Of a stretch of DNA of 64,000 bases, positions 24,837-60,462 are shown in pieces. Every line of letters begins with the position of its first letter. The stretch's first letter is position 1. Source of the stretch: an uncultured Flavobacteriales bacterium (lineage in GTDB: Bacteria > Bacteroidota > Bacteroidia > Palsa-965); NCBI GenBank assembly GCA_903873905.1, contig CAIQQJ010000006.1, positions 1 to 64,000 on the forward strand. Reading direction: 5' to 3'. The notes beneath the pieces are model-generated. The model was not told where the DNA came from and made no database searches. It saw nothing but the letters and a program-made list of their open reading frames with translations. Position numbers and translations under genes: made by a program.

Positions 24837-25889
24837 CTAAAAAAAGCTTGGCTTGGAAAGTCTTGTGTTCTGAGAACTGTATAATCCTGTATAAATCAGC
24901 ATAAATTCCATTGCCCCCCTTCCATTGCTCGCCGCTGTCAATTTCGAAACATTGAGGTCGTAATTAATTGCGGCACCAATCGCTCCGATGTCCACGCGCA
25001 CATAAGCGGAAACGGCATCACCTAATCGATACATTCCACCAAGTGTAAATGAACGATCATTTTGATAACCCGTGTAATGAGATCTGTCTTGCATTTTGAA
25101 TTTTACCCCAGCTCCTGCGTTTATCATTTTTGCAGGTCCTTGCTGAACATATTCGAACTGTGGAATCAATGTCGTATTTGCATTTTCTCCCAATGCAATT
25201 TGTGCAGAATAATGTGCACACAATTTCATGTAGAGTTTATCTGTGCCGCCAAGAAATTGTACCTCTGGTCGACTCAAATGACTTACCGCAGCACCTCCAT
25301 TCATTTTGAATCGATCATTTCTCACTGTTGTAATGGCAATTCCAGCAGCATAATCTCCAAATAGATAATGATCATTTGGCAATGCAGTTTCTCCTGATCC
25401 CAATGTCGGATCATAGTTCAACCCATCAAATTGTTGATTCCAAGTCGAACTGCCAAGATTAATACTTCGTTGATCCATACCAGCCATGAATCCCATAGAA
25501 AAAAATGTTGCCCCCGCACCATCGAGTGATTTGTTGTAAGAAAAACTTCCACTGAACTGATTGTTTTTCAAACTTGTGCTTCCCGCTTTATCCACATTCA
25601 CATTCAATCCAACGGCAAAAAAATCAGGACTCGATTTCTTTTTATCTTTTTTCGGCAATGGCATATCCCCACCAAATGAATAAGTGGTGTAAGGTTTGGA
25701 AATATTCGACCATTGTGTTCTGTAATTATTTACAATACGCAAATCGCCAGTGAAATTTCCAGTCAATGCAGGATTTAAAGTCAAAGGTGCCATGGTAAAC
25801 ATGGAATAATGAAAATCCTGTGCTTCGGAAAAAAGCGGTAGCAGTAATATAACGCAAAGCATTTTAAAAAAAAGTTTCATCCGTTTCAT
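24837..25889 (-). CDS. PorP/SprF family type IX secretion membrane protein
   Basis: 350 residues. After the signal peptide (LFFKMLCVILLLPLFSEAQ) comes the PorP/SprF opening FHYSMFTMAPLTLNPALTGNF, then an outer-membrane barrel with YRTQWSNISKPYTTYSFGGD and NDRSFTLGGMYRLGDAV. SprF-like proteins are needed for export or anchoring of the large CHU_C-type adhesin encoded next to them. Here that partner lies directly upstream in the same operon, 18 bases away. Confidence 0.92.
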   Translation of the reverse strand: MKRMKLFFKMLCVILLLPLFSEAQDFHYSMFTMAPLTLNPALTGNFTGDLRIVNNYRTQWSNISKPYTTYSFGGDMPLPKKDKKKSSPDFFAVGLNVNVDKAGSTSLKNNQFSGSFSYNKSLDGAGATFFSMGFMAGMDQRSINLGSSTWNQQFDGLNYDPTLGSGETALPNDHYLFGDYAAGIAITTVRNDRFKMNGGAAVSHLSRPEVQFLGGTDKLYMKLCAHYSAQIALGENANTTLIPQFEYVQQGPAKMINAGAGVKFKMQDRSHYTGYQNDRSFTLGGMYRLGDAVSAYVRVDIGAIGAAINYDLNVSKLTAASNGRGAMEFMLIYTGLYSSQNTRLSKPSFF

Positions 25890-30565: not shown

Positions 30566-30595
30566 TTTGAAACTATTTCGATTTTATTTTTTTGA

Positions 30596-30603
30596 TAATT
30601 TTG
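30596..30603 (+). promoter_or_regulatory. TAnnTTTG -7 box of the ferredoxin gene
   Basis: TAATTTTG about 31 bases before the ATG. Confidence 0.5.
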
Positions 30604-30634
30604 CCGCAACAAAACTACCAATAAGCAGAAAACT

Positions 30635-30982
30635 ATGGCAATCAAAATCACGGACGAATGCATTAACTGCGGAGCTTGCGAGCCCGAGTGTCCAAATAAT
30701 GCTATTTATGAAGGTGGAAACGAATGGCGTTTCTCCGATGGAACAACCATCAAAGGGCAATTTACTTCCAAAAGCGGAATTAGCGCTGATGCCGATGCTG
30801 CGCAAAATGCGGTAAGCATGGATTTCTATTATATCGTTTCTGACAAATGCACCGAATGTGTAGGATTTCACGATGAACCTCAATGCGCTGCTGTTTGTCC
30901 TGTGGATTGTTGCGTGGATGATGAGAATTGGCGTGAGTCAAAAGAAGAGTTGGCTTCAAAGAAAGCTGCACTTCATGGGTAA
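30635..30982 (+). CDS. 4Fe-4S dicluster ferredoxin
   Basis: 115 residues. The first cluster motif CINCGACEPECP is at residues 9-20; the second half has CTECVGFHDEPQCAAVCP, with the long loop before the third and fourth cysteines seen in YfhL/Alvin-type ferredoxins. A 40-residue insert separates the motifs. A cytoplasmic low-potential electron carrier. It may supply electrons to the divergent acyl-CoA reductase, but that is only an inference from position. A terminator follows. Confidence 0.92.
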   Translation: MAIKITDECINCGACEPECPNNAIYEGGNEWRFSDGTTIKGQFTSKSGISADADAAQNAVSMDFYYIVSDKCTECVGFHDEPQCAAVCPVDCCVDDENWRESKEELASKKAALHG

Positions 30983-37401: not shown

Positions 37402-38052
37402 ATGTCAATACAGGATAACATACTTCATATAAAAAAATCTCTTCCCAAAGAAGTAACACTTATCGCTGTATCTAAAACAAAAACAAACGAACAAATCATA
37501 GAGGCATACAAGGCAGGCCAACGCGACTTCGGTGAAAATCGTGTGCAGGAAATCGTTCCGAAGCATGAAGCACTTCCAAAAGACATTCGCTGGCATTTGA
37601 TTGGACATTTGCAAACGAACAAAGTAAAATACATCGCTTCATTTGTTCACCTAATTCATTCTGTCGACAGTGAAAGTTTATTGGCAGAAATAAACAAGCA
37701 AGCCGCAAAATCCAATCGCGTTATTCCAATTCTCCTTCAAGTGTTTATCGCACAAGAAGAAACCAAATTCGGTTTTTCATTCGAGGAAATTGAAAAGTTG
37801 ATGGCAGAAAATCCGGAAATAAAATATCCGAATGTCCGCATCGAAGGATTAATGGGAATGGCAACAAACACAGAAAACCAAACTCAAATAAGAAATGAAT
37901 TTCATTCACTGAAGAATTTCTTTGTCAGTCTCAATACTCAACACTCAATACTCAATACTATTTCCATGGGCATGAGTTCCGACTGGAAAATTGCCGTTGA
38001 AGAAGGAAGCACAATGATCAGAGTTGGAAGTTCCATTTTCGGAGAACGCTAA
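37402..38052 (+). CDS. YggS family PLP-binding protein (PLP homeostasis)
   Basis: 216 residues of the alanine-racemase-like barrel. The PLP lysine is in LIAVSKTKTNEQ, followed by DFGENRVQEIVPK, WHLIGHLQTNKVK and the phosphate loop SMGMSSDWKIAVEEGSTMIRVG. It controls the level of free PLP in the cytoplasm. A stretch around residues 177-187 is encoded by a short tandem repeat (ACTCAATACTCAATACT at 37942) that looks like intergenic repeat DNA. Confidence 0.95.
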   Translation: MSIQDNILHIKKSLPKEVTLIAVSKTKTNEQIIEAYKAGQRDFGENRVQEIVPKHEALPKDIRWHLIGHLQTNKVKYIASFVHLIHSVDSESLLAEINKQAAKSNRVIPILLQVFIAQEETKFGFSFEEIEKLMAENPEIKYPNVRIEGLMGMATNTENQTQIRNEFHSLKNFFVSLNTQHSILNTISMGMSSDWKIAVEEGSTMIRVGSSIFGER

Positions 38053-38094
38053 TTTTCATATGTTGAAATTCAATTACTTTTATAAAAAATCACA

Positions 38095-38646
38095 ATGAAT
38101 TCAGAAGATCAAAATCCTACAGACGAAGAAAATATAGAACCTTTCATTCATGAAGATGCTGAATTTCGCACAGCATTCTTCGGACCAGTTCCAGACAAAA
38201 TTATTGAAGCTGTTCCACAAAAATTCGACAGAAAACTCATCTCAACATTAATCACTCAACTCACCGATCAAAATGCGCGCGAGTTAAAAGATGAAGTGCT
38301 GCACACACTTAAGACTGGAGAAGCGCAAAAATTACTTGTTGAAGTAATTGCAATGAAAGAATATGTAAAGCACCGTCAGGTGCTTCTTGCCGCATGCTGG
38401 GAAAGCGGATTGGATTTTTCAAATCACCTTGATTTTTTCATTGCACTTTTGAGTGACAAAGACACAAATGATTTATGTTTCGTTGAAATCGCAACAATTA
38501 TTGAAGAAATTCCGGGCCCGATTGATCCAAAAATTCTGGCACAAGCACAAGAAATTTTTCAAAAAACAACTTTTGAAGAGCCGTTGAAAAGGGAATTTAT
38601 GACCTCAATTTCTATGATCCTTATCAGTTTTTCTGCGCCCAAATAA
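38095..38646 (+). CDS. Conserved helical protein, function unknown
   Basis: 183 residues, acidic at the N-terminus (EDQNPTDEENIEPFIHEDAE), then a series of amphipathic helices such as DRKLISTLITQLTDQN, LLVEVIAMKEYVKHRQVLLAA and LDFSNHLDFFIALLSDKD, which look like HEAT-type repeats. No signal peptide. I recall similar uncharacterised proteins in Bacteroidota. It is 42 bases behind yggS and probably co-transcribed. Confidence 0.65.
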   Translation: MNSEDQNPTDEENIEPFIHEDAEFRTAFFGPVPDKIIEAVPQKFDRKLISTLITQLTDQNARELKDEVLHTLKTGEAQKLLVEVIAMKEYVKHRQVLLAACWESGLDFSNHLDFFIALLSDKDTNDLCFVEIATIIEEIPGPIDPKILAQAQEIFQKTTFEEPLKREFMTSISMILISFSAPK

Positions 38647-52429: not shown

Positions 52430-52516
52430 CCGCTGAAAATTCTGTCCTTCACCCTATTTTTTATTCCTAAAATTGGCTATCTTTCGCAGTGAATTGATGT
52501 TTATAACCCATTGCAC

Positions 52517-52870
52517 ATGAAACGCTTCCTCTTTTTTTTACTGATCAGTTTACCGCTACTTTCTTTGACTGATGCGCGTAGTTATGTATATGTCAATCCC
52601 AACGCAGTTACTGAAATTGCTCCTTATACAGAGGCCCTGTCACATTCGGATCTTGATAAGTACAGATATTTTGATAAACGAAACACACTTCATTTCGAAA
52701 ATGGCTTGGATGTGGAATTGCTTTCTGCAAATGAACTAACTGCAGCTGGAATCCCTTTCAACAGAGATCATGTGCGTACAGAAGTTCCTGCATTTGACAC
52801 CAAACCAATTTTCAAATTGACTTCATCAGGAATTCTTGTTGAAATACAAACACGCTCCAAAATAAAATAA
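52517..52870 (+). CDS. Small exported protein, function unknown
   Basis: 117 residues with a signal peptide (FLFFLLISLPLLSLTDA) and a short alpha/beta region without known motifs. The ATG at 52517 follows a TTG in the same frame by two codons. It ends 4 bases before the next start, so it is co-transcribed with the adhesin gene. No family recognised. Confidence 0.65.
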   Translation: MKRFLFFLLISLPLLSLTDARSYVYVNPNAVTEIAPYTEALSHSDLDKYRYFDKRNTLHFENGLDVELLSANELTAAGIPFNRDHVRTEVPAFDTKPIFKLTSSGILVEIQTRSKIK

Positions 52871-52874
52871 GCAA

Positions 52875-55800
52875 ATGAAAAAAATCTACATTTTCCTTTT
52901 CAGCTTAAGTTTATTTGTGTCATTGAATCCAATTCATGCTCAGCTAATAAATGATGATTGTTTTGGAGCAACACCATTAGGAACATTAGGAGCACCTGCA
53001 CCTTGCCCATCGGGACTTGGCACGGTTTCAACTTTCAACAATCTTACCAATGTAAATTCAGTAACAGAACAACCTTATACAACTTTAATAAACTGCCAAC
53101 CTTCATTGAATACACCAATGGCTTCCCCAGCTACTGATGTATGGTATTCGTTTGTGAATAATGGGAATGCTGTTACAATTACCATTAATGGAAATATTGT
53201 AAATCCAAATATTGCAATTTACCAAGGAAATTGTTCGGGACTTATCGGACGTGGTTGCGCAATTGGTTCAGGAAATTCTTTGACTGCCACTTTTGATCAA
53301 ATGGTAATTGGTCAGACTTATTACATTCAAATTAGCGGAGGAAGTCCTGCAGACCAAGGCACTTTCAACATGACACTTCAGAATTCAAATTCATGTTCCG
53401 ATTGTTTGCTTTCATCTAACCTAACAGTTAATCCACTTCCTGTAAATGGGACTTATCAAGGGGGAACAACTGTTACTTTTTGTTACACCGTTACGCAATG
53501 GGATCAACAAAACACAAATTGGTTTCAGGCTTTAGTTCCTATTTTCGGATCAGGTTGGAATTTGGCAACGCTTACAAACTTACAAGGTGCTTCAACATGC
53601 GATGGTGGTCCTGGTGTTTGGTCGTGGTTTAATAATGTGAATTGTCCTAATGGAAATGGAATTCTAAGTGGATTTTTCTTTGATGGAGATATGGTACAGG
53701 GCGGGCCTGATGGAAATCCAACAAATAATTTCGGAGACAATTGCACTGGTAATGTAAACTGGACTTTTTGTTGGACAATCACATCGAATACTTGTCCTCC
53801 AGGACAAACAGGTGATAATCTCGGAATTAATATTAACACATTTGGTGATGGAGAAACAGGCAATTGGATAAACCCCGCTTGTATTGCCGATCCAATTTAT
53901 CAATTCAATGCATCGCTCGTATGTTGCGCGCCGCCGCAAATGTCGCAGGTAAACGTATTGTGTTTTGGTGGAAATAATGGATCCATTACTGCCAATGCTG
54001 TTGGTGTTGGCGCGTTTGATTACACGTGGTACAATGCCGCTAACACAGTCATACAAACTGCGGTTGGACAAACAGTTCCAAATACAATCAATAATTTGGT
54101 GGCAGGAACGTATCACGTTACAATTACGGATAGCAACAGCGGATGCACAACAACAACATCTGTTACAATTACTCAACCAACACAATTAGTACTTCAAACA
54201 ACTTCAACAAATGCTAGTTGTAACCAAACAAATGGTTCTGCAACTGTCACTCCATCTGGCGGAACATCACCTTACGATTTTGTTTGGACCGATGCACTGA
54301 ATAATGTTTTACAAACCGCTAATAATATAACTGGACCAAATACATTAAACAATCTTGCTGCGGGAACTTATAATGTTCTTGTAACAGATGCCAATAATTG
54401 CCTTGCAAACGTTTCTGTAATTGTAACTGGTGTCCCAGGAAACCTTGCAAACGTAATGTCGAGTGTAGCTGCTAGTTGTTTCGGAATTTGTGATGGCACT
54501 GCAACCTGCACATTGAATGGAGGAACTGCTCCATACACCTATGCATGGAGTGCGAATGCCGCGAATCAAACCACCCAGACAGCTACCAATTTATGCGTAG
54601 GCACATACACAGTAAATTATCATGATGTAAATAACTGTTCGGGTACTGCAACAGTTGCTGTTACGGGGCCTCCTGCGGTTACTTCAACAGTTGTAGCAGC
54701 GCCAACAACAATTTGCATTGGTCAATCATCTACACTCACAGCAACTCCTGCTGGAGGAACTGGCTCAGGTTATACTTACGTTTGGACTCCTGTTGGAACA
54801 GGCACTACACAAAACGTAACTGTTTCTCCAATTGTAACAACAACCTACACTGTGGTTGTATCAGATGGCAACGGCTGCGCTGCTCCTCCTGCTACTGTAA
54901 CTGTAACTGTAAATCCTGTATTGAACGTTACGCTCACAGCTTTTCCACCTGCCATTTGTCTCGGATCATCATCTACACTAACAGCTGTTGCCAATGGCGG
55001 AAATGGTGGACCTTACACCTACACCTGGTTGCCAGTGGGTACAGCGGGAAATACAATTACAGCAAACGTCACTCCAACTGTTACTACAACTTACACGGTA
55101 ATACTTTCTGATGGATGCACTTCACCAAATGATTCTGCAACGGTTACTGTTACTGTCAATCAACCTCCAGCCTTCTTTCATTGGAAATCCATTGACCGGT
55201 TGCGCTCCAGTTTGCGTCACCTTTACAACGCCGAATAATCCAACATGGACAACCTGTGCATGGGATTTTGGTGACAACGCAACTGTTTCAGGAAATTGTA
55301 ATCCGTTGCATTGTTATACAACTCCAGGTTGTTATAACGTAATGTTAACTGTCACCGATGCTAATGGTTGTATTGGAACAGTCACGATGCCCAATTATGT
55401 TTGTGTTTCTGCAACTGTGAATGCCCAGTTTTCTGCGAGTCCGCAACCGACAGATATTTTCAATACAAATCTGACATTCACAGATCAGTCAACAGGAAGT
55501 CCAACATCTTGGAATTGGTATTTTGGTGGATTGGATAGTTCTAACATGCAGAATCCAACTTATATTTTTCCAAATGAATCTGCAGGATGTTATGACGTAA
55601 TTCTTGTCGCTAATAATACAGCGAATTGTCCTGACGTTGATACTGTGCGAGTTTGCATTGATCCTGATTATGTGATTTATTTTCCAAATGCTTTCACGCC
55701 AAATGCTGATGGAATAAATGATTTCTTCATTGGAGTTGGTGAAGGAATTGACAAATATGAAATGTGGATTTTTGACCGTTGGGGAAATTTGATTTACTAC

Positions 55801-55950
55801 ACCGACGATATTAGCCATCCATGGGATGGAAAAGTTCAAGGAAAGAGCGACAATCTCGTTCAACAAGATGTTTATGTTTGGAAAGCCAAAGTCACTGACG
55901 TTTTTGGAAAGAAACATAAATTCATTGGACACGTTTCCGTGATTCGATAA
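52875..55950 (+). CDS. SprB-repeat/PKD/CHU_C surface protein, split by a frameshift
   Basis: One gene of about 1024 codons in two frames. The first frame (52875-55238) has a signal peptide (IFLFSLSLFVSLNPIHAQ), a beta-sandwich domain, and SprB-type repeats (VLCFGGNNGSITANA). It goes wrong after QPP at 55170 and stops 22 codons later. The second frame, from 55171, continues PSFIGNPLTGCAPVC, a PKD domain and the CHU_C domain (FPNAFTPNADGINDFF to HVSVIR). The paralogue at 56287 reads straight through the same place (APPVPTFTGTPLTGCAP), so two bases are missing, or one extra, here. As written, the product would lack its T9SS signal. Confidence 0.85.
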
Positions 55951-56286: not shown

Positions 56287-59200
56287 ATGAGAATTAAAAT
56301 TACTTTGTTTTTTATATTGGCTTTGGGTTTTGCATCCATTTCTGCAACAGCTCAAACAAGCAAATCCAATTTTGATTTTCTGAACAAATTAGGAGATCAA
56401 AGCCGTGTGGCTTTTGTTGAAAATGTTGGTCAGCTGAGTCCCATAAAAGAACTTCAAGGGAAAAAAGTATTGTTCAGTTTTGAAGATGATAAAGGATTGA
56501 CTGCCTATTTCACAAGCACAGGCGTAATTTACAGAGTCTCCAAGCAACAAAAAGTTTCTGAAGCGGAATATGAAGAAGCGATGAGAGAAAATGGATCTTC
56601 TGAAAGAGAGGAAAATGATTTGGCAGAAAAAAACAAAGCAAAATTTCTGACCAAGACAGAATTTGTTGAAATGAATTGGGAGGGTGCAAATAGCAATACC
56701 AAAGTTATCGGGAAAAATCAGACCAGTGCTTACTTCAATTTTTACATGCCTTCAATTAACAAAGACAAAGTAATTGGAAATGTAAAAGGATATACCAAGA
56801 TCGTGTATGAAAACATTTATCCTTTTATCGACATTGAGTATACAATCCACCCTGAAAAGGGAATGAAATATTCTTACATACTGCATCCTGGGGCAAACCC
56901 TTCTGACATACGAATGGATTATTATGGTGCCAACTTGAAAATGGATGGTGAAGGAAATATGATTATTTCAACCGACTGTGGTGACATTACAGATTATGCA
57001 CCATTAACTTTCAAAGCAGCTCAAGTGGATGGAAAAATAATTAGTTCTCAATTTGAATTGGTTAAGAAAAATACGGTTGGTTTCACTCTCGCAAATGGAA
57101 TGAAAACGATTACAGAAACAATCATCATTGATCCTTGGCAAGTTGGACCTAATTTTCCTGCAAGTGGATTTACACCAAACGATTTGTCGGTAGATGGAGC
57201 AGGAAACGTTCTGGTTTATTCTTACAATACTACTCCTAGTTCAAGAATTGACAAATACAGTCCTTTGGGTGTTTTTATGTGGACTTTTAATTTGACAACC
57301 AGTGCAGGATATTCAGGTTTCCAAGGTGATGTAGCTTCTGATGCTGCAGGTAACGTTTATGTATCTATTGGATTAGGTCCGAATAACAATACTGGATTTT
57401 ACAATACAATTAAAATAAATCCTACAGGCACTGCATTGATATGGGGAAACACTACTGCAGGAACTGGCACGAATAACATGATGGAAACATGGACCATCAC
57501 CTTTAATTGCAATCACACACAATTCTATCAATCAGGAGGAGGACGAATTGTTTCGGGTACTACTTACTTCAACATGAGCGTGGAAGAACCAGTGAATGCC
57601 GCTACTGGAGTGGAAGGTACATTGATTGAAAATGATTCGATGGGTGATATTTATTGTACCTATTATGCTGCCAATAATTTGGTTTATCACATGACTGGTG
57701 ACAGTAATGTGACTCCAGATTTGGCAGGTGGCCTTTTAGCCGCAACTTCTGGTGCGGATAATAATTTAATTTGTTTTAATGCTGCATCTGGAGTTCGATT
57801 GTTCAGGGTGCATACAGGATATGCTTATATCGATGGAGATGTAAAAGCTCCTGGTTCAGTTGGAATGGATGCGATTACATCGTCTTGCCAGTATTTATAT
57901 ACCACGAATGGTGCTAGTATTGATCGATGGGATCCATTAACAGGAGCTCATTTCAATCAGGTAACAATTCCAGGAGGAAGTACTACCCCTGGTGCGGTGA
58001 ATGCTGGTATTACAACTGATAAATGTGGTAATGTCTTTGTAGGCTCCAATAATAATATCTACGAATACGATGCCACTTTAAATTTGATAAATACCATAGG
58101 AGGACTCCCAGGCGTTGTATTTGATTTAGCGTGGGGAAATGTTGCGAACACGAATCTTATGGTCTGCGGTGGAACTACCAATGGAACAACTTTCCTTGCA
58201 TCAGTTGCAGTTACCCCTTGCGTCTTGCCAAACTTTGTGACCGTTACTGCGGTACAACCATCCTGTGCATCTCCGACTGGATCAGCTACAGCAACGGCAA
58301 CATTTTGTGGAGGACCCTATACGTATTTATGGAGCAATGGACAAACCACTCAAACCATAACAAATCTTGCTCCAGGAACCTATACTGTTACAGTTTCCTC
58401 AACTGTTTCTTGCCCTTATTCTTACGTTCAAACGCAAACAATAGTAATTGCTCCTGGATCTGGAACATTAAGTACAACTCAAGTCGCCAATAACGTTACC
58501 TGTTTTGGTGGATGCAATGGATCAGCTACAGTGACTCCTTCAGGAGGGACAGGACCTTATACCTATAATTGGACACCAAGTGGAGGGAATTTGGCTACTG
58601 CTTCTGCGCTCTGTCAAGGAAGTTATTCATGTACGGTAACAGACGCTACTGGTTGTTCGGCAATAGTGCCGTTTACAATTACTCAACCAGCACAAATTGT
58701 TCTTACTACAACATCTACACCAGCTGGATGCAACATGACAAATGGCTCGGCAACCGTTACTCCAAGTGGTGGAGTTGGACCGTATGATTTTGTTTGGACA
58801 GATGCATTGAATAATGTTTTGCAAACTGCAAATAACCAACCTGGCTCCAACGTCTTAAATAATCTTGGTACTGGCACGTATAATGTATTGGTTACAGACG
58901 CCAACAACTGCCTTTCCAATATTTCAGTAATCGTAACTGGAGCACCTGGAAGTGTTGCAAGTGTTATGACAAATTCTCCAGTCACCTGTTTTGGAAATTG
59001 TAATGGAACTGCAACTGCTACCTTGAATGGAGGAACTGCCCCTTATACTTATCAGTGGAGTGCTAATGCAGCAAATCAAACAACGTTGACTGCAACAGGA
59101 CTTTGCGTTGGAACATACACTGTGAATTTTGCGGATGCAAACGGTTGTTCTGGTACTTCGACTGTATCAGTTACCGGACCAACACAAGTAACTGCAACTG

Positions 59201-60462
59201 TAGCTGCTGTTCCTCCAACCATTTGTATTGGTCAATCATCGAATCTCACAGCAACTCCTGCTGGTGGATTAGGATCTGGTTATACTTACGCATGGACTCC
59301 AGTCGGTACAGGTTCAACACAAACTGTTACTGTTTCCCCAATTGTAACAACCACTTATACTGTTGTCGTTACTGATGGAAATGGATGTGTTTCTGCACCT
59401 GCTTCAATTACTGTAACTGTCAATCCTCCTCTGAATGTAACGCTTCTTGCTAACCCAAGTCCAGTTTGCATTGGATCACCTTCAACACTAACTGCAACTC
59501 CTAACGGAGGAAATGGTGGACCTTATACTTATACTTGGTTGCCAGTAGGAACAGGTGGAAATTCAATCACCGTAAGTGTGACGCCAACTGTAACAACAAC
59601 TTACACGGTTATTTTATCCGATGGTTGTACTACACCAAACGATTCTGCAGTAGTTACAATTACTGTAAGTGCACCTCCGGTTCCTACATTCACTGGAACA
59701 CCATTAACAGGTTGCGCTCCATTATGCGTGAATTTCACTACACCAAATAATCCAACATGGATAAGTTGTGCCTGGAATTTTGGAGATGGGTCTCCAGTAT
59801 CAACTAACTTCAATCCAAATCATTGTTACACCATAACAGGTTGCTATAATGTGACATTGTCAATTACCGATGCAAGTGGATGTGTTGGTACCGTCACAAT
59901 GCCTAATTATGTTTGCGTTTCTCCAAATGTGGTTGCTCAGTTTACTGCAAGTCCCCAACCAACTGATATTTTCAATAGCACAGTTTTCTTTACAGATCAA
60001 TCAACAGGGGCACCAACAAGTTGGACTTGGTATTTTGGAGGATTGGATAGCTCAAACGCTCAAAATCCAAACTACCATTTCCCAAGTGATGTTGCCGGAT
60101 GCTATGACGTTGTTCTCATTGCGAATAATGCCGCGAATTGTCCTGGAGTGGATACAATGAGAATCTGTATAGATCCTGATTATGTCATTTATTTTCCAAA
60201 TGCATTTACTCCAAATGGTGATGGAGTAAATGATAATTTCATTGGCGTCGGAGAAGGAATTGACAAGTATGAAATGTGGATCTTTGACCGATGGGGAAAT
60301 CTGATTTTTTATACAGATAACATGGGTCACCCTTGGGATGGAAAAGTTCAGAACAAGAGCGACAACCTCGTACAAGAAGATGTTTATGTTTGGAAAGCAA
60401 AAGTCACAGATGTTTTTGGAAAGAAACATAAATTCATCGGACACGTTTCAGTGATCAGATAA
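56287..60462 (+). CDS. SprB-repeat/PKD/CHU_C surface protein with DUF7948-like N-terminus
   Basis: 1391 residues from the ATG of MRIKITLFFILALGF (signal peptide ending SATAQ). Residues about 35-290 match a domain common before beta-propeller repeats in Bacteroidota (FVENVGQLSPIKELQGKKVL, YPFIDIEYTIHPEKGMKYSY, IIIDPWQVG). A beta-propeller-like region follows to about 640. Then come SprB-type repeats (VTCFGGCNGSATVTPSGG), Ig-like units, a PKD domain (CAWNFGDGSPVST) and the CHU_C type B sorting domain. Its last 560 or so residues are close to those of the upstream paralogue, while the N-terminal halves differ. T9SS-exported surface protein. Confidence 0.92.
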   Translation: MRIKITLFFILALGFASISATAQTSKSNFDFLNKLGDQSRVAFVENVGQLSPIKELQGKKVLFSFEDDKGLTAYFTSTGVIYRVSKQQKVSEAEYEEAMRENGSSEREENDLAEKNKAKFLTKTEFVEMNWEGANSNTKVIGKNQTSAYFNFYMPSINKDKVIGNVKGYTKIVYENIYPFIDIEYTIHPEKGMKYSYILHPGANPSDIRMDYYGANLKMDGEGNMIISTDCGDITDYAPLTFKAAQVDGKIISSQFELVKKNTVGFTLANGMKTITETIIIDPWQVGPNFPASGFTPNDLSVDGAGNVLVYSYNTTPSSRIDKYSPLGVFMWTFNLTTSAGYSGFQGDVASDAAGNVYVSIGLGPNNNTGFYNTIKINPTGTALIWGNTTAGTGTNNMMETWTITFNCNHTQFYQSGGGRIVSGTTYFNMSVEEPVNAATGVEGTLIENDSMGDIYCTYYAANNLVYHMTGDSNVTPDLAGGLLAATSGADNNLICFNAASGVRLFRVHTGYAYIDGDVKAPGSVGMDAITSSCQYLYTTNGASIDRWDPLTGAHFNQVTIPGGSTTPGAVNAGITTDKCGNVFVGSNNNIYEYDATLNLINTIGGLPGVVFDLAWGNVANTNLMVCGGTTNGTTFLASVAVTPCVLPNFVTVTAVQPSCASPTGSATATATFCGGPYTYLWSNGQTTQTITNLAPGTYTVTVSSTVSCPYSYVQTQTIVIAPGSGTLSTTQVANNVTCFGGCNGSATVTPSGGTGPYTYNWTPSGGNLATASALCQGSYSCTVTDATGCSAIVPFTITQPAQIVLTTTSTPAGCNMTNGSATVTPSGGVGPYDFVWTDALNNVLQTANNQPGSNVLNNLGTGTYNVLVTDANNCLSNISVIVTGAPGSVASVMTNSPVTCFGNCNGTATATLNGGTAPYTYQWSANAANQTTLTATGLCVGTYTVNFADANGCSGTSTVSVTGPTQVTATVAAVPPTICIGQSSNLTATPAGGLGSGYTYAWTPVGTGSTQTVTVSPIVTTTYTVVVTDGNGCVSAPASITVTVNPPLNVTLLANPSPVCIGSPSTLTATPNGGNGGPYTYTWLPVGTGGNSITVSVTPTVTTTYTVILSDGCTTPNDSAVVTITVSAPPVPTFTGTPLTGCAPLCVNFTTPNNPTWISCAWNFGDGSPVSTNFNPNHCYTITGCYNVTLSITDASGCVGTVTMPNYVCVSPNVVAQFTASPQPTDIFNSTVFFTDQSTGAPTSWTWYFGGLDSSNAQNPNYHFPSDVAGCYDVVLIANNAANCPGVDTMRICIDPDYVIYFPNAFTPNGDGVNDNFIGVGEGIDKYEMWIFDRWGNLIFYTDNMGHPWDGKVQNKSDNLVQEDVYVWKAKVTDVFGKKHKFIGHVSVIR

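Follow-up and report, generated by a model that had tools for sequence, protein, structure and literature searches.

Gene 52875, a long, repeat-rich surface-protein gene in the window (the 64,000-nucleotide stretch of DNA analysed here), is split near position 55170 by a frame break that leaves its signal-peptide-like start in one frame and its T9SS sorting domain in another. The break is confined to this gene, its homologues are intact at the site, and selection past it is unrelaxed. We read it as a private two-base break with no evolved role, and slightly favour a genuine indel of very recent origin (probability about 0.5) over an artefact; that the break is real and its product mislocalised we infer from the comparisons and literature below. 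By itself the break means little, being one more private frame break.

Anatomy of the frame break and the neighbouring paralogue

The features on which the argument rests are as follows.

52875..55238, + strand: surface-protein gene, N-terminal fragment; ORF of 787 aa, its last 22 codons outside the ancestral frame
52875..52943, + strand: signal-peptide-like N-terminus, the first 23 residues, judged by eye
54198..54296, + strand: best SprB repeat (the fragment has three stretches); Pfam PF13573, 9.8e-21, residues 442-474
55102..55238, + strand: region in which both frames are open, the limits for any frame transition (stops 55099-55101 and 55236-55238)
55168..55172, + strand: frame break, two bases (net) short of the paralogue; a single frame crosses the site in the orthologues
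55111..55950, + strand: severed C-terminal ORF, second frame, 279 aa; two PKD domains and the sorting domain, homology beginning at the break
55678..55947, + strand: type B T9SS sorting domain (CHU_C / TIGR04131), 52.5 bits against a cut-off of 35, in a 282-aa open frame
56287..60462, + strand: intact paralogue; N-terminal part DUF7948, C-terminal part probably duplicated from 52875; sister to the 52875 C-terminal part, support 100/99

The ORF starting at 52875 changes frame at about 55170, after ...VTVNQPP, and runs for 22 codons to the stop at 55236-55238; the first 765 residues of its product align with the paralogue and the orthologues, and the final 22 do not. The second frame is open from 55102 to a stop at 55948-55950, with no further stop between. 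The preliminary description had placed the loss of frame at 55170, right after QPP, with the sorting domain in the other frame, and both the ORF limits and the paralogue alignment bear this out. It had also described a complete PKD and CHU_C domain in the second frame, which holds for the C-terminal sorting domain (CHU_C, PF13585, 2.5e-13 in Pfam; the TIGR04131 match in NCBIfam spans positions 2-85 of 85) and not for the first PKD domain. Pfam finds two PKD_4 stretches in the severed frame; the break falls right where the penultimate PKD domain begins, and the best PKD_4 match begins at profile position 24, so that by the profile this domain is not quite complete (in 56287 the best match starts from residue 1130, ~59674, at profile position 3). 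The short product keeps, as described, a signal-peptide-like start (read by eye) without a sorting domain: Pfam and NCBIfam profile searches find neither TIGR04131 nor CHU_C in that frame. Signal peptide and sorting domain thus share one frame in 56287 and are divided between two in 52875.

In the DNA alignment of 53900-55950 with 58300-60462, the last ~1.8 kb (beyond 54131) contains a single gap, two columns wide, at 55170/59681. From ~54160 onward the two sequences are identical at 63-86 per 100 columns on either side of the break; such homologous identity on both sides marks a broken homologous gene and not a chance reading. The alignment, together with the single frame that joins signal peptide and sorting domain in 56287, agrees with the earlier statement that the paralogue is intact at the corresponding point. 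A mix-up of repeats with 56287 as the cause of the break is unsupported, there being no jump in identity at 55170.

A tree of the C-terminal part joins 52875 and 56287 (support 100/99). In five relatives (G001, G002, G003, G005 and G007) the orthologue of gene 60586 follows that of 52875 with no 56287-like gene between; the remaining five loci show no 60586 match within the stretch examined. For the N-terminal part of 56287, the 11 relatives searched yield distant matches only, the best-scoring 36% identical. Most likely, to judge from these sequence comparisons, 56287 arose within the lineage when a DUF7948-type N-terminal part became fused to a duplicate of the C-terminal half of 52875, which would be one route by which sorting modules spread among surface proteins.

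Distribution and age of the break

The first 352 residues of 52875 were searched against 59 genomes (its own and 58 relatives, one genome per species). Matches were found in 24 of the 59, its own included, and eight other genomes match at 63-81% identity. A scan of genome contigs added to the protein search, giving seven loci, five of them already met. Together these make ten distinct outside orthologous loci (G001, G002, G003, G005, G006, G007, G024, G035, L045 and L047). All ten read through the site of the break in one frame; nine were aligned residue by residue across it, and G035 is a single 1281-aa frame with both ends. Every locus has a signal-peptide-like N-terminus by eye, and eight are unbroken from the N-terminal part to the sorting domain. 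The frame break at 55170 is private to gene 52875 in this genome.

The two remaining orthologues are broken elsewhere. The one in G001 (L049 2158-2215) has a frame break in its SprB-repeat region with ~90 residues gone, through either collapse or real deletion. That in L047 (6287-6934; CP096135, a MAG titled complete genome) has two breaks, near residues 98 and 308. Since these lie at other places, breaks in 52875 orthologues are scattered and have no common site.

Because synonymous sites are mostly saturated in comparisons with other genomes, selection was assessed from the paralogue comparison alone. Between 52875 and 56287, dN/dS is 0.104 after the break (257 codons) and 0.122 before it (256 codons), with dS of 1.22 and 1.30, respectively. 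With G003 as outgroup, 52875 carries 12 amino-acid changes against 24 in the paralogue after the break and 11 against 25 before. The severed segment has evolved like the unsevered part, with no sign of relaxed selection or of long neglect, which fits misassembly or a break of very recent date. Given the duplication that led to 56287, this likeness means that the break came much later than the duplication or is not real. Neither relaxed selection nor further lesions past the break, as expected of a decayed pseudogene, are seen in 52875; if it is a pseudogene, the substitution pattern suggests a very young one. Purifying selection on the severed frame would be seen alike if the break were recent, if it were an artefact and if the frame were still expressed; it is the privacy of the break that makes the first two far likelier.

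The main rival is an artefact of the draft genome, with the gene intact in the living organism, whether through sequencing error, misassembly or a consensus drawn from mixed strains; it is a serious contender, somewhat short of an even chance. The assembly is a 181-contig draft, the severed frame is under the normal constraint expected of an intact gene, and singleton breaks occur in relatives as well. The contig was compared with proteins from 80 kb of each of four relatives (ORFs with hits of at least 100 bits: 25 for G007, 21 for G003, 32 for G006 and 30 for G002). All four flagged the break at 55170, the only one in the contig flagged by every relative compared. Two other flags, each from one relative, were judged on inspection not to be frameshifts: at 30577-30801 a stop lies inside the matched upstream stretch, opposite a + strand ORF at 30635-30982, and 37962-38137 falls on the tail of the preceding ORF. 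In the reverse comparison, neighbouring glycosyltransferase genes show one break each in G007 (matching 50512) and G002 (matching 49313), while G003 and G006 show no break. With such singletons in the relatives too, including the differently placed breaks in the G001 and L047 orthologues of 52875, they appear ordinary in these drafts.

The published background points the same way. In the excerpts of PMC3711429 and PMC11017572 used here, artefacts of this kind are called common; the former surveyed frame transitions and expects a singleton break validated by BLASTp to be a sequencing error and not a real indel, and the latter finds that pseudogene counts depend on assembler, platform and coverage. 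As a private, homology-confirmed break in one genome with no conserved site, 52875 resembles the singleton frameshifted genes and candidate pseudogenes of these excerpts and differs from them in nothing of note; the break happens to sever a secretion signal. Against an artefact stands the lack of longer base runs at the site. Within 55101-55238 identical bases occur in runs of three at most, in line with the preliminary description, which had reported no homopolymer at the break. Its use of this as an argument against an artefact proved weak, given the expectation in PMC3711429 for BLASTp-validated singletons. Even where no homopolymer is present, an isolated frameshift in a draft assembly calls for comparison with orthologues before any mechanism is proposed. 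Further against an artefact, the nearest genomic copy is ~75% identical around the break, too divergent for a simple repeat mix-up, and the break at 55170 is the only one confirmed, both when the contig is set against the four relatives and among the 38 sorting-domain ORFs surveyed below. This scarcity fits real mutation and assembly error alike.

For the survey, each of the 42 TIGR04131 domains over cut-off in the genome was extended to its open frame (46,035 codons read), a design that detects solely those breaks by which a sorting domain loses its signal peptide. Four ORFs run off contig ends. A signal-peptide-like N-terminus is present in 37 of the 38 that remain, the sole exception being the severed ORF of 52875. 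By a crude hydropathy scan, whose line (best 10-residue mean of at least 2.0) was chosen after the values had been seen, 33 of the 38 are signal-peptide-like; four more (C98, C174:14363, C145:64305 and C115:172) were recognised by eye, and the severed ORF scores 1.92, just below the line. Three other short open frames, in C102 (264 aa), C145 (368 aa) and a C57 PKD protein outside the 42, each proved to encode a complete small protein that begins with a signal-like N-terminus of its own.

Recoding, phase variation and separate translation

Programmed ribosomal frameshifting or phase variation would yield two forms, a short one in the periplasm and a long one exposed at the surface, and an intact, constrained second frame is what continued expression would likewise predict. 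This account is highly improbable, as none of the ten orthologous loci shares the transition at the site, whereas a programmed frameshift should be conserved among homologues. Nor does the site have the homopolymer or short tandem repeat of a phase-variable gene: besides the missing base runs, no tandem repeats were found in 54900-55450. The in-frame codons at the break are ordinary sense codons, with no stop; shift-site motifs other than base runs were checked by eye only. RNA near the break folds slightly better than shuffled sequence (z -1.68, pseudoknot-free folding), but 15 of 200 shuffles do equally well, which is within chance. Searching viral contigs for the break-site pattern gave no match, a tRNA scan of the window found none, and none of the papers found on programmed frameshifting in Bacteroidetes concerns T9SS by its title. 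The preliminary view that slippage is disfavoured is upheld by the lack of runs of at least four bases, of tandem repeats and of conservation at the site.

The severed ORF might instead be translated separately, from an ATG at 55111 or 55129. This 279-aa ORF begins with ATG, its opening 30 residues show weak hydrophobicity (the best 10-residue mean of 1.92 given above), and the second ATG places one Arg ahead of the hydrophobic stretch. We consider this very unlikely, since the N-terminus so produced is old coding sequence in the wrong frame, and the first ATG gives no K/R in residues 2-8, where 32 of the 33 family members scoring at least 2.0 have one. Equally hard to credit is a two-product gene established after the duplication, which would make a periplasm-retained adhesin-like protein together with a PKD-CHU_C module that is recoded or re-initiated at 55111/55129.

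Predicted fate of the shortened product

The genome encodes a T9SS, as indicated by sprA (TIGR04189, 2655.7 bits) and 21 PorP-family matches. Gene 52875 has in common with T9SS type B substrates of the SprB-like adhesin type, as they appear in excerpts of PMC9143113 and PMC12618676, a signal-peptide-like start, SprB repeats, PKD domains and a type B sorting domain. It differs from them in that these features are split over two frames, with the sorting domain out of frame, and in having no PorP/SprF-family neighbour. According to the same excerpts, type B CTDs require PorP/SprF-type shuttles. The sole PorP-family hit on the contig is at 24888-25874, with none beside 52875 or 56287. That gene adjoins another type B sorting-domain ORF on the same contig (24888-26168).

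If the indel is real, the two-base change would have shifted the frame within a long gene for a repeat-rich type B T9SS surface protein, and translation would stop 22 codons past the break. The 787-aa product would probably cross the inner membrane by way of its signal peptide; with no sorting domain, it would not be taken across the outer membrane through the T9SS. The excerpted results of PMC12618676 offer a precedent, in that periplasmic sfGFP with a signal peptide and no CTD was, in F. johnsoniae, in the cell extract only. It is a fair inference from this precedent that the predicted 787-aa product would lose surface export and stop in the periplasm. The neighbouring, lineage-specific 56287 carries that C-terminal part in unbroken form.

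Directly upstream of 52875, at 52511-52870, lies a gene for a small protein that is signal-peptide-like and matches no Pfam or NCBIfam family. In nine of the ten loci, all except G035, its homologue immediately precedes the 52875 orthologue, which makes this small protein a possible partner.
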